NCBI GenBank assembly: GCA_028710895.1
Contig: JAQTTH010000014.1
Span: forward strand, 1-64,000
DNA from: Paludibacter sp.
GTDB lineage: Bacteria > Bacteroidota > Bacteroidia > Bacteroidales > Paludibacteraceae
DNA: 64,000 nucleotides
Direction: 5' to 3'
The notes under the pieces are model-generated. The model worked only from the letters and a program-made list of their open reading frames with translations, made no database searches and was not told the DNA's origin. Positions within the stretch are counted from its first letter, which is position 1, and every line of letters begins with the position of its first letter. This document shows, piece after piece, positions 41,379 to 44,804 of this stretch. The translations under genes and the position numbers were made by a program.

Positions 41379-42083
41379 ATGCTAACCGACGACAAACGAT
41401 TGACAATTCGTGAGTGGGCTGAGGACGACCGTCCGCGCGAGAAAATGATGCTGAAAGGCGCTGCGAGCCTTTCGGATGCTGAGTTATTGGCAATTTTGAT
41501 AGCCATTGGCAACAAAGACGAATCGGCCGTGGAACTGGCCCGCCGCATTATGCGCGAATGCCGGGATAACATCAACGAACTGGCTCAACTAACCGTGAAC
41601 GACCTGTGTAAACGCTTCAAAGGGATAGGCAAAGCAAAAGCTATCACCATTATGGCAGCGTTGGAACTTGGGCGGCGGCGCAAAACCAACGAAATAGTGG
41701 AACGCACAAAAATTACGTCGAGCATCGATCTGTTCGATTTGTTTGAACCGCAGTTGGTGGATTTACCACACGAGGAGTTTTGGGTAGGATTGCTCAACGG
41801 AGCCAACAAAGTGATAGAAATAAAACGATTGACGCAGGGTGGCAGTCGGCAAACGGTGGTGGATATACCCATGTTGCTGAAAATGGCGTTGGAAAAATCG
41901 GCGCTTTCGGTGGTGGTGGCACACAATCATCCTTCGGGACAAAACCGCCCGAGCCACGAAGACGAACAAATAACCCGACGCATAAAAGCAGGTTGCGAAG
42001 CCATTGGCATTGGCTTTCTCGACCATATCATTATTGCAAAAGGACAATATTATAGTTTTGCCGACGAAGGGAAAATGGGTTGA
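41379..42083 (+). CDS. radC: RadC family DNA repair protein
   Basis: 234 residues, normal for RadC. The N terminus LTIREWAEDDRPREKMMLKGAASLSDAELLAILIAIG is highly conserved and shows the start is correct; there is no other methionine to use. It contains a helix-hairpin-helix (LCKRFKGIGKAKAITIMAALELG) and the JAMM metalloprotease motif AHNHPSG (H182, H184), with S192 and D195. The repair role of RadC is debated. Its stop codon is the first three bases of the left 52-bp inverted repeat, so whatever inserted there did so exactly at or beside the stop. Confidence 0.95.
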   Translation: MLTDDKRLTIREWAEDDRPREKMMLKGAASLSDAELLAILIAIGNKDESAVELARRIMRECRDNINELAQLTVNDLCKRFKGIGKAKAITIMAALELGRRRKTNEIVERTKITSSIDLFDLFEPQLVDLPHEEFWVGLLNGANKVIEIKRLTQGGSRQTVVDIPMLLKMALEKSALSVVVAHNHPSGQNRPSHEDEQITRRIKAGCEAIGIGFLDHIIIAKGQYYSFADEGKMG

Positions 42084-42132
42084 TGTGATGATGTGATGAT
42101 TCTTTGATGTGATAATGTGATGATGTAATGAT
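42081..42132. repeat. Left 52-bp inverted repeat of the four-helix-bundle element
   Basis: Made of TGATG/TGATAATG-type units. It is 50/52 identical to the reverse complement of 42531-42582, with mismatches at arm positions 45 and 50. It starts with the radC stop TGA. Confidence 0.95.
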
Positions 42133-42168
42133 TTTGGAATTAAGTATACACTTTAAAAATAATGATTT

Positions 42169-42513
42169 ATGGAAAGAAGAAATGAAATTCTGGAATTGAG
42201 TTTTGAGTTTGCTCTTGATATTATTATATTTACAGAGTTATTGGAGGAACAGAAAAAATATATAATCGCAAGGCAACTTCTAAAATCGGGCACATCAATT
42301 GGAGCCAATGTGAGAGAATCTCAAAACAGCGAAAGTAAAGCTGATTTTATTCATAAATTAAAAATTGCCGCCAAAGAAGCCGAAGAAACAGAATACTGGT
42401 TACTTCTATGTCAACATTCACCAAGTTACCCTTACAATCCAGACTTGACAACAAAACTAATCAGCATCAAAAAATTACTCTCCAGTATAATTTCGAAAAT
42501 GAAGACTCAATAA
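42169..42513 (+). CDS. Four-helix-bundle protein (23S rRNA intervening-sequence protein family)
   Basis: 114 residues. The family signature is visible: LSFEFALDIIIFTELLEEQKKYIIARQLLKSGTSIGANVRESQNSESKADFIHKLKIAAKEAEETEYWL. The SGTSIGANV(R/E)E core is characteristic of this family. Similar proteins are encoded in the intervening sequences of some 23S rRNA genes and as accessory proteins (Avd) of diversity-generating retroelements. Here the gene sits between two 52-bp inverted repeats, 36 bases after the left and 17 before the right, so repeats plus gene form one 502-bp unit. No reverse transcriptase or transposase is present. The function is unknown. Confidence 0.92.
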   Translation: MERRNEILELSFEFALDIIIFTELLEEQKKYIIARQLLKSGTSIGANVRESQNSESKADFIHKLKIAAKEAEETEYWLLLCQHSPSYPYNPDLTTKLISIKKLLSSIISKMKTQ

Positions 42514-42530
42514 AATCAACACATCACCAC

Positions 42531-42582
42531 ATTATTATATCATCACATTATCACATCAAAGAATCATCACATCATCACATCA
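42531..42582. repeat. Right 52-bp inverted repeat of the four-helix-bundle element
   Basis: Reverse complement of 42081-42132 with only two differences. It ends 15 bases before the ATG of the ABC ATPase gene. The following bases contain another GATGTGA-like unit. Confidence 0.95.
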
Positions 42583-42597
42583 CCTAATCTTCACATC

Positions 42598-43491
42598 ATG
42601 ATATTATTAGAAGTAGAAAACGTAGTAAAACAATATGCAGGACATCGCGCCCTCGATGGGGTGAGTCTGACGGTACCCGAAAATTCGGTGTACGGATTGC
42701 TTGGACCGAATGGTGCCGGAAAAACGACGTTGATTCGAATTATCAACTGTATAACGGCCCCCGATAGCGGCGAAGTACGCCTCAACGGCAAACGCATGAC
42801 GACTGCCGATGTGCAGCAGATTGGCTATTTGCCCGAAGAACGCGGACTGTACAAAAAAATGAAGGTGGGCGAACAGGCTTTGTACCTGGCACAGCTCAAA
42901 GGCATGACCAAACAGGACGCACTGAAAGCACTGAAATACTGGTTCGAGAAATTTGAGATTCAGGCCTGGTGGGATAAAAAGGTGGAAGAACTATCGAAAG
43001 GTATGGCACAAAAAGTGCAATTCATCACCACCATTCTTCACGACCCGAAACTGCTGATATTCGATGAACCTTTCAGCGGTTTCGACCCCGTAAATACCGA
43101 CCTGATGAAGCGAGAAATTCTGGAACTGCGCGACAAAGGCGCTACCATCATTTTCTCGACCCATAACATGGAAACCGTCGAAGACCTCTGCGAGAATATC
43201 TCGCTGGTCGATAAATCGAAAATTGTGCTTCAGGGAAATGTGGCTGACATCAGGGCTTCGCATGCCACCAATACCTTTGTGGTTCGGTCGGTGAACGCGT
43301 TCGAAGCAAACGGCTTCGAACTGCTTTCGCAAACACAGAAGAATAACATTTTCGAAAGTACCATAAAGAAAGCGCATACCGAAAGTAATAATTCGCTTTT
43401 GGGCGCCTTAATCCAAAAAACGGAAATACTCTCTTTCGAAGAGTTGCTACCAAGCATGAACGATATATTTATTAATACGGTATCACGATGA
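42598..43491 (+). CDS. ABC transporter ATP-binding protein (NatA-like)
   Basis: 297 residues. Walker A GPNGAGKTT (37-45), signature LSKGMAQKVQF (about 133) and Walker B LLIFDEPFSGFDP are present. The C-terminal extension after the ATPase domain (DKSKIVLQGNVADIRA...) is typical of ABC-2 exporters of the NatA type. It pairs with the permease at 43488, whose start overlaps its stop (ATGA), so they are translationally coupled. Together they resemble the Na+ exporter NatAB, but the substrate is not established. The right repeat of the four-helix element lies 15 bases upstream. Confidence 0.92.
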   Translation: MILLEVENVVKQYAGHRALDGVSLTVPENSVYGLLGPNGAGKTTLIRIINCITAPDSGEVRLNGKRMTTADVQQIGYLPEERGLYKKMKVGEQALYLAQLKGMTKQDALKALKYWFEKFEIQAWWDKKVEELSKGMAQKVQFITTILHDPKLLIFDEPFSGFDPVNTDLMKREILELRDKGATIIFSTHNMETVEDLCENISLVDKSKIVLQGNVADIRASHATNTFVVRSVNAFEANGFELLSQTQKNNIFESTIKKAHTESNNSLLGALIQKTEILSFEELLPSMNDIFINTVSR

Positions 43492-44804
43492 GCAAGATTT
43501 CACTGATTATAAAACGGGAATATACAACGCGGGTAATGAAAAAATCATTTATCCTGCTCACATTCCTCACGCCTGTACTTTTTGCCGGAATGATTGCGCT
43601 TGTAGTGTGGCTCGGCGGTATCAAGGACGACAAAATGAAAACAATTGTGGTGGTCGACAGAACACATTTGTACAAAGATGTTTTCAAAAGCAACGAATCA
43701 TACGCGTTCGAATTTACAGATAAATCAATCGAAGACGTCAAAAAGCAAAACGAAAAAGACGAGCATTTTGCAGCACTGCTGTACATTACCGGCGACCTGA
43801 AAACCGATTCGAGCGCTGCTACCCTATTCTCGGCCAAGCAGGTAAACATGGAACTAAAAAGCTATGTGGCAGGCTTGCTCAATAAATACATCGAGCAGCA
43901 AAAACTGGCTTCGTACAATATCCCGCACCTGAAAGAAATGGTTGAGAAATCCCGTACAGATATCGAACTAAAAACGATTAAGTGGGGCGAAAACGGAAAC
44001 GAGAAACAAGGCTCAGCCGAACTGGCCCTGATTATCGGAATGATTTCGGCGTTTATTATCTATATGTTTATCGTCATTTACGGTGCTCAGGTAATGAGTG
44101 GCGTTGTGCAGGAAAAAACAAACCGCATTGTGGAAGTAATTATCTCGTCGGTAAAACCGTTCGAGTTGATGATGGGGAAAATCATTGGTATTGCCATGGT
44201 GGGTCTCACCCAGTTTTTACTTTGGGTTGTGCTTACCGGAGTTATTTCGCTCGCCGTGGGGTCATTCTTTGGAGGAAACGTGGATGTGACTTCGCTGCAA
44301 AAAGCAGGTCAAATGGGTATGCAAACTATGCCAACCAACGCCATGCCAGCCGAAATGCAAACATTAATCACTGCTTTGAGCAGTCTGAATTACGTTGAAA
44401 TAATATCACTGTTTATCGTCTATTTTCTGGGTGGTTATCTGTTGTACGCATCGCTCTTTGCAGCCATTGGCTCGGCTGTTGATAACGAAACCGACACACA
44501 GCAGTTCTCGTTGCCGATTATGCTTCCGATCATTTTTGCCATTTATGCAGGTATTTTCAGTGCCGAAAATCCCGACGGTCCGCTGGCATTCTGGTGCTCG
44601 ATGATTCCATTCACATCGCCCATCGTTATGATGGTGCGGCTTCCTTTCGATGTGCCTGTTTGGCAAATCGCACTCTCACTCACTATCCTTGTGTTGTCGT
44701 TTATTGGCACAACCTGGATGGCAGGCAAAATTTACCGGACGGGAATTTTGATGTACGGCAAAAAAGTGACCTGGGGAGAATTGTTGAAATGGCTGCGATA
44801 TTAA
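43488..44804 (+). CDS. ABC-2 type permease (NatB-like)
   Basis: 438 residues. One N-terminal membrane helix (KSFILLTFLTPVLFAGMIALVVWL) is followed by a 130-residue extracytoplasmic domain, then five membrane helices from about 180. Conserved ABC-2 features include QVMSGVVQEKTNRIVEVIISSVKPFELMMGKIIG. It forms the membrane part of the exporter whose ATPase ends in the overlapping ATGA. After the stop a hairpin TGTCATCAC-GAATT-GTGATGACA occurs near 44838-44860 without a T run. Confidence 0.92.
   Translation: MSKISLIIKREYTTRVMKKSFILLTFLTPVLFAGMIALVVWLGGIKDDKMKTIVVVDRTHLYKDVFKSNESYAFEFTDKSIEDVKKQNEKDEHFAALLYITGDLKTDSSAATLFSAKQVNMELKSYVAGLLNKYIEQQKLASYNIPHLKEMVEKSRTDIELKTIKWGENGNEKQGSAELALIIGMISAFIIYMFIVIYGAQVMSGVVQEKTNRIVEVIISSVKPFELMMGKIIGIAMVGLTQFLLWVVLTGVISLAVGSFFGGNVDVTSLQKAGQMGMQTMPTNAMPAEMQTLITALSSLNYVEIISLFIVYFLGGYLLYASLFAAIGSAVDNETDTQQFSLPIMLPIIFAIYAGIFSAENPDGPLAFWCSMIPFTSPIVMMVRLPFDVPVWQIALSLTILVLSFIGTTWMAGKIYRTGILMYGKKVTWGELLKWLRY

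Follow-up and report, generated by a model that had tools for sequence, protein, structure and literature searches.

A putative compact mobile element in Bacteroidota and other phyla: genes of the 23S rRNA intervening-sequence protein family between inverted arrays of 7- or 8-nucleotide repeats

The window analysed here is a 64,000-nucleotide (nt) stretch of Paludibacter sp. DNA (GenBank assembly GCA_028710895.1, contig JAQTTH010000014.1, positions 1 to 64,000). Between its radC gene and a gene for an ATP-binding cassette (ABC) transporter ATPase lies a small element in which one gene of the 23S rRNA intervening-sequence protein (IVP) family is enclosed by two inverted repeats, the arms. The features of this locus are as follows.

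42081 to 42132, plus strand: left arm, about six octamers, TGATGTGA-like, with the family consensus RATKTGNN; its first three bases are the radC stop
42169 to 42513, plus strand: IVP gene (four-helix-bundle, PF05635/TIGR02436), 114 amino acids (aa), identified by profile matches; PDB relative 2rld, E 2.8e-23
42531 to 42582, minus strand: right arm, the octamer array of the left arm inverted, 50/52 complementary
42066 to 42132, no strand assigned: extended left half of the inverted repeat, 88% complementary to its partner at 42531 to 42597
42531 to 42597, no strand assigned: extended right half of the inverted repeat, reaching the ABC start codon
41379 to 42083, plus strand: radC, the upstream host gene, ending in GKMG, one residue beyond the GKM of several relatives of the same genus
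42598 to 43491, plus strand: ABC transporter ATPase, the downstream host gene, identified as an open reading frame (ORF) and by Pfam
43488 to 44804, plus strand: next ORF, a putative ABC permease (named without a family search), overlapping the ATPase gene by 4 bp (ATGA)

The arms at 42081-42132 and 42531-42582 pair at 50 of 52 positions (96% over 52 bp when the element was searched against its own genome), and each is a tandem array with an 8-bp step. A repeat-pair search extended them to 42066-42132 and 42531-42597, 67 nt each and 88% complementary, with 398 nt between them. The sole ORF of at least 60 aa within the element, at 42169-42513, encodes a protein of 114 aa that matches Pfam PF05635 (23S_rRNA_IVP) with 76.1 bits (cut-off 33.8) and TIGR02436 with 88 bits (cut-off 24); PF05635 is the only Pfam family matched by this gene. 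The stop codon TGA of radC, which ends at 42083, forms the first three bases of the left arm, and the ABC gene starts at 42598, 15 bases past the right arm. An initial annotation, made from the sequence alone, had described near-perfect 52-bp arms around a single four-helix-bundle gene of this family, starting at the radC stop and ending 15 bases before the ABC start, and the pairing, the two profiles and the coordinates bear this out. Its interpretation as a mobile unit or RNA-level stem is supported in part; the octamer arrays within the arms and the family-wide occurrence of the architecture had been overlooked. Folding of the RNA strand from 42066 to 42600 gave -146.8 kcal/mol (z = -8.4), and none of 100 shuffles folded as well. 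An Rfam search of 41800-42900 returned no match up to E 1, and a known RNA family was rejected on this basis. A promoter and terminator scan found 8 promoter-like sites against 3.3 expected, a weak signal made up of consensus matches only.

We assembled 118 IVP loci, comprising the 8 IVP genes of the window's own genome, 80 loci kept of 131 from close relatives and the 30 best hits from a sample of 296 Bacteroidota genomes. An IVP hit was present in 235 of these 296 genomes versus 0 of 14 control genomes. For each locus, the 200 bp upstream of the gene were aligned to the reverse complement of the 200 bp downstream, with a threshold score of 15; two loci (L088 and L136) were dropped for short flanks, leaving 116. 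Scores of at least 15 were obtained at 93 of the 116 loci (7/8 in the own genome, 70/78 in close relatives and 16/30 in the Bacteroidota sample, the window copy included), compared with 2/266 for other ORFs of the same loci and 12/1160 for mononucleotide shuffles. Forty further loci from the 296-genome list, added as a guard against picking, reached the threshold in 26 cases. So did 24 of the 25 plasmid records, which are all those listed by tblastn (the exception, L193, scored 11), and 7 of 9 loci on viral contigs. Some plasmid records are closely related, for example three from Planktothrix, and the viral pairs L236/L237 and L241/L242 look like mutual copies; all remain in the counts. The initial annotation had proposed that repeats absent from other family members would speak against it; 150 of 190 loci reach the threshold (93/116, 24/25 for plasmids, and 33/49 for the further Bacteroidota and viral loci). 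The idea of a one-off feature of the radC-ABC locus was rejected, as the arms recur at loci across the related, plasmid and viral sets. At the level of nucleotide sequence, these counts demonstrate that an IVP gene between inverted arrays is an architecture general to the family across phyla. In these analyses, the gene end of the unannotated locus L180 and both gene ends of L174, from the plasmid set, were placed by hand. The near-duplicates L037_RA, L045_RA, L111 and L160 were left out of the tree, wobble, logo and neighbour-orientation sets used below, while the four near-duplicate pairs stay in the arm-score and lag counts where present.

The arms share a narrow choice of period. With lags of 5 to 11 allowed, the best lag within the flanks was 8 in 86 and 7 in 47 of 133 IVP loci, with no other value, and lag 7 or 8 was best for 122/271 other ORFs and 35/133 shuffled flanks. 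The later sets gave 7 or 8 at 14/15 plasmid, 39/40 Bacteroidota and 9/9 viral loci, and all sets pooled, near-duplicates included, at 195 of 197. The consensus of the 8-nt unit, RATKTGNN or RAT(G/T)TGNN, holds about 6 bits, and its orientation relative to the gene is constant in 67/69 left and 67/68 right arms, as judged by a logo fitted to those same arms; arms with an autocorrelation below 0.56 were left out of the logo set. A different 8-nt unit, close to ACAAAG by eye, was seen in the arms of L195, L196, L199, L201, L209, L211, L212, L220 and L221. The IVP proteins beside ACAAAG-type arms are mostly alike at their start, and these loci lie outside the tree. Separately, the IVP gene L189 of a Nostoc plasmid lies within a 40-bp inverted repeat that shows no 7- or 8-nt step, its best lag being 5.

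The period goes with the protein. In a tree covering 128 IVP proteins, of which 114 carried a period label, the period requires 6 changes, compared with a mean of 32.1 for shuffled labels, and 0 of 500 shuffles were as low. The tree was built without the near-duplicates and without L174, a 35-aa frame; the 15 of 133 loci lacking a clear period label are mostly in the tree and none enters the change count. One clade of 15 rows (SH-like approximate likelihood ratio test, SH-aLRT, 97) is entirely 7-nt and spans Cyanobacteria, Treponema, Chloroflexota and Bacteroidota. Within a single operon of genome G028, an 8-nt element lies at the radC-ABC junction and a 7-nt element at the ABC-permease junction. 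Since two periods occur in the same operon and the period tracks the protein tree, the step belongs to the element and not to the host or the place. The sister proteins L170 and L178 have quite different repeat units, which indicates that spacing is kept rather than sequence. Among the labelled loci, period is evidently tied to protein clade, while sister proteins can carry repeats of different sequence.

Occupied and empty junctions were compared at 30 loci at the ABC gene: that of the window's genome, 28 from other genomes of its genus and one from its order. The end of radC and the start of ABC were resolved by script in 16 of the 30, and 4 of these 16 hold an IVP element (G000, G034, G021 and G028), the other resolved junctions being gaps of 23 to 366 bp without it. 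Some gene-less gaps contain array-like sequence by eye, for example in G017, G019, G002 and G023, and further gene-less junctions were found at L033, L035, L038 and L053. At the ABC-permease junction, the genes overlap by 4 bp (ATGA) in seven genomes, and an IVP element is present in G018 (L049), G028 (L046) and G034 (L037); 7-nt arms were measured in the copies of G028 and G018, and that of G034 appears by eye to be decayed, with in-frame stops. A close copy also occurs elsewhere. The protein of L061 shares 93.75% identity with its counterpart in G021 (L060/L045) and 92.9% with that in G028; no homology to either copy was found in the 1.5-kb flanks compared, and L061 lies between a dUTPase (dut) gene and an iron-containing alcohol dehydrogenase gene. 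At the DNA level, L061 and the G028 copy are homologous starting with the first base of the stop codon of dut and stopping 7 bp short of the start codon that follows; the outer parts of this match are array aligned to array, and in the relative L060 the end of dut is without the element. As far as the compared sequences go, one and the same junction can be filled in one genome and short in another, and close copies of gene and array stand at different junctions. The earlier proposal of a discrete insert sparing its neighbour genes gains support from the filled and short junctions of one genus and from the close copy behind the dut stop, and the junction comparison proposed with it, for which a locus never found empty would have been adverse, did yield junctions without the element. 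Its further claim, that the element targets stop codons, does not emerge as a rule. Several sites do have the array adjoining the upstream stop, and other causes give the same picture: selection against inserts within genes would look alike, and an array step that is not a multiple of 3 places its stop codons in every frame.

Two further observations concern sites. The IVP proteins of L128 and L137 are 87.6% identical, and the stretch upstream of L128 matches that downstream of L137, so that element and neighbour seem to have changed places. In L065, L067 and L070, from three distant Bacteroidota groups by record name, diverged homologous neighbours stand on both sides of the IVP element; this site may be old, or the neighbourhood may have been transferred together.

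Arrays also occur without the gene. The window's genome carries octamer arrays away from its 8 IVP genes, several as inverted hairpins (L005, L006, L007, L017 and L022), and in L006 and L017 the array comes right after a stop codon, that of a 318-codon open frame in L006 and of a 104-codon one in L017. Of the 296 Bacteroidota genomes, 43 matched a strict three-unit octamer pattern; they comprise 42 of the 235 genomes in which IVP had a hit and 1 of the 61 without one (Fisher p = 4e-4, uncorrected for kinship). A backward version of the pattern served as control. One Bacteroidota genome, G316, matches the backward pattern 43 and 33 times, hinting at a further array family built on another unit.

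Where a long open frame lies on each side of the IVP gene, as in 106 of 129 loci, both frames are co-directional with it in 86, both opposed in 7, convergent in 10 and divergent in 3; orientation was scored on open frames and not on annotation. By this count the element sits mostly between co-directional genes, both left whole. Plasmid copies were read for defence-gene neighbours in L169, L171, L174, L176, L187, L188, L191 and L193. Elements were found between cas2 and cas1, and another beside cas1; beside DISARM, MmeI and BREX genes; between hsdS and hsdR; and between DUF1156 and Swt1 genes. In the available text of PMC3936711, 18 genes of the IVP kind are reported in cas loci.

The protein itself is kept, as indicated by a low ratio of nonsynonymous to synonymous substitution rates (dN/dS), which was 0.03 to 0.24 in 19 of 26 close pairs where it was computable, many with saturated dS. 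Among 40 aligned IVP proteins, Q36, S56 and E73 are invariant, and S40, S43, N47, E50, D59, K63, E70 and W77 are among the positions conserved in at least 90%. The sequence relatives 2rld and 2gsc, the latter from the Xanthomonas IVP gene XCC0516, are solved PDB structures with five chains per entry. A Xanthomonas IVP protein is described as a homopentamer in the accessible part of PMC4990558, and the accessible parts of this paper and of PMC11270868 give IVP/S23 proteins no known function.

Our preferred reading, to which we give a probability of about 60%, is that the IVP gene and its two inverted 7- or 8-nt arrays form a widespread compact element that works by the following mechanism. The IVP protein is probably a ring reading nucleic acid at 7- or 8-nt steps. 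It would bind the array as a ruler for this spacing, the substrate probably being single-stranded or hairpin RNA or DNA, and we consider a direct coupling between protein and array likely. The mirrored arrays could form a long hairpin in RNA or single-stranded DNA. In the transcript, this stem might be cut by RNase III, as an operon version of the 23S rRNA intervening sequences (IVSs), and the operon would then be cut between genes, where a cut harms little; such processing at the RNA level is possible, if somewhat doubtful. The protein would promote the spread of its own element and, in trans, that of gene-less arrays, with DNA insertion supplied by the host or by an unknown enzyme. Whether the protein is needed for movement is close to an even question, leaning slightly to the negative. 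That the element inserts as a unit is well favoured, a little less strongly than we had first judged, since a rearrangement could also explain the dut case.

Several observations weigh against this reading. Arms stay below the threshold at 23/116, 14/40 and 2/9 loci. When lags of 4 to 15 are allowed, 120/133 loci give 7 or 8, and the others give 14 (8 loci), 15 (4) and 12 (1); the consensus of the 7-nt unit is weak, at 2.8 bits. The protein tree has few alignment columns and 54 of its 125 inner branches are unresolved, with near-copies present and labels read from the flanks. The backward pattern matches 27/296 genomes, 26/235 with IVP and 1/61 without (p = 0.02), which suggests that the association of arrays with the gene is not special to the RATKTGNN octamer, through other array families or a shared background, or that relatedness contributes. 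One genome (G082) matches the array pattern but lacks an IVP hit, and another (G185) has 21 octamer matches and 1 IVP hit. As for movement, L060 has its dut gene about 2.4 kb away from its own IVP gene, so that the dut case could reflect a rearrangement that broke within the array instead of a newly made insertion; to the left of the L060/L045 copy, half of the 200 bp are N; and no target-site duplication was established, the left dut junction being readable and the right junction in the relative being other sequence. Most IVP protein pairs at least 85% identical have homologous flanks, as do many at 75-85%, and inheritance in place is accordingly the common case. Neither a recombinase nor a reverse transcriptase is encoded in the element, the search for one not having extended to the rest of the genome. 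At the RNA level, a pairing (wobble) test on 105 loci with arm scores of at least 15 counted 231 compatible versus 196 incompatible arm transitions (p = 0.10; p = 0.28 per locus), and concerted evolution of the arms was absent (0.530 within versus 0.543 between orthologues). The few paired heptamer arrays of Nostoc PCC 7120 (PMC4692102, in its accessible part) and the nearly all direct arrays of a Beggiatoaceae genome (PMC4679880, likewise) ill suit an origin of such arrays as simple remnants. Finally, low dN/dS and shared sites are as compatible with a role for the host as with selfish behaviour.

The last point leads to the best surviving alternative, an unlikely one in our estimate, by which the IVP protein is a resident host RNA-binding regulator that controls itself through its own arrays and has the other arrays as targets, not mobile and only sometimes transferred with its regulatory sites. 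The low dN/dS, the site kept in many close pairs and the gene-less arrays beside the ends of other open frames agree with such a regulator. It accounts poorly for the presence and absence of the element at junctions within a single genus, the decayed G034 copy with its in-frame stops (by eye), neighbours of unrelated kinds, plasmid defence genes among them, and several IVP copies per genome.

We regard as improbable an RNA-only selfish element of the kind proposed for 23S IVSs, in which the stem matters, RNase III excises it and the protein is dispensable or decaying. The stem of the window copy (z = -8.4) would be expected under it, and in Coxiella RNase III excises a 23S IVS whose ORF, a member of this family, is decaying (PMC4990558, as far as its available text goes). 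Against it stand a dN/dS well under 1, the conservation of periodic arrays and not of any stem, and the wobble test, which was not significant. About as improbable is a scheme in which the arrays came first, as 7- or 8-nt repeats born in operon gaps by slippage or an unknown array-forming process, with IVP genes settling or surviving only there and moved otherwise or by rearrangement. The array-like gene-less radC-ABC junctions of G017, G019, G002 and G023 (by eye), octamer matches that exceed IVP hits in some genomes and a dut case that could be a rearrangement are compatible with that order of events; a period that tracks the protein clade across phyla, two periods within one operon, the mirrored arrangement on both sides of the gene and octamer matches in just 1 of 61 IVP-lacking genomes are not what it predicts. 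A chance inverted repeat in low-complexity sequence, for which one could cite the low complexity of short-unit arrays and the loci under the threshold, was rejected as practically nil on the other-ORF and shuffle controls of arm score and lag and on the fold (z = -8.4).

Heptamer arrays of the Calothrix type go by the name STRR. They are defined by tandem 7-nt intergenic units; the window copy has 8-nt units and falls outside this definition, and 7-nt units do occur elsewhere in the IVP family. According to the available text of PMC4692102, heptamer repeats are known from Calothrix, Nostoc and Xanthomonas (of the GGGNATC type in the latter two), and inverted heptamer pairs number 70 and 75 in two Xanthomonas genomes. 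These repeats resemble the arms described here in their 7-nt units and their intergenic position between aligned ORFs; they differ in that pairs are few in Nostoc and that the window copy has 8-nt units and a gene. The TAACTGA repeats of Beggiatoaceae, Cyanobacteria and Bacteroidetes are likewise intergenic 7-nt arrays found over distant phyla, with suspected horizontal spread, but there a single heptamer was studied, nearly all arrays are direct, and the proposed binders are S1, Csp and Csr proteins (PMC4679880, available part). The terms 23S, S23 and four helix are absent from the text of PMC4692102, and these terms and intervening from that of PMC4679880. In our searches of open-licence PMC papers, none was found that ties IVP genes to 7- or 8-nt arrays.

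The 23S rRNA IVSs are the closest known kind, and the element is classed nearest to them for this reason. In both, terminal inverted repeats form a stem around an ORF of the same family, and for the IVSs the fragmented RNA is tolerated (PMC4990558, in part); in candidate phyla radiation (CPR) bacteria, IVP ORFs occur in intervening sequences of 16S as well as 23S genes (PMC11270868, in part). The element of the window differs in lying between two protein genes, radC and that of the ABC ATPase, and in having arms made of 8-nt arrays. A ribosomal IVS in the strict sense was rejected, the element not being in an rRNA gene. The likeness to Avd proteins of diversity-generating retroelements is distant: the Avd profile NF033474 matches L143 with 34.9 bits and L178 with 16.5 bits, both under the cut-off of 80, and gave no hit to the window protein at E 0.01. 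A part of such a retroelement was rejected on this profile; the genes adjoining the IVP gene are radC and the ABC ATPase gene, no search for a reverse transcriptase having been made. Repetitive extragenic palindromic (REP)/RAYT systems and miniature inverted-repeat transposable elements (MITEs) are also small, intergenic and inverted, and have gene-less forms. Two marks of a transposon or MITE are present, namely terminal inverted repeats along with sites that lack the element, but the window protein matches only PF05635, the element contains no Y1 transposase gene, and its arms are tandem arrays.

A broader proposal can be made only tentatively. The IVP elements could be a new self-spreading class in which a pentameric four-helix-bundle protein, serving as a 7- or 8-nt ruler, builds, copies or recognises the inverted arrays that flank its own gene; they could be the hidden source of the STRR, TAACTGA, GGGNATC and RATKTGNN arrays of cyanobacteria, Beggiatoaceae, xanthomonads and Bacteroidota; the rRNA IVSs could be an offshoot; and movement could proceed without a known transposase or a reverse transcriptase of the element's own.

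The finding also matters for the mining of defence islands, as an IVP gene located amid cas or other defence genes may be an insert in the operon, placed between its genes, and not a part of the system. The heptamer arrays of cyanobacteria and xanthomonads have been described without an owner gene of the IVP family, judging by the terms absent from the texts of PMC4692102 and PMC4679880. A single mobile element thus seems to unite, as its two halves, a protein family that is poorly understood and a class of short repeats that has long lacked an explanation, and the tie between period and clade gives IVP proteins and arrays a direct mutual test, the protein against the arrays.

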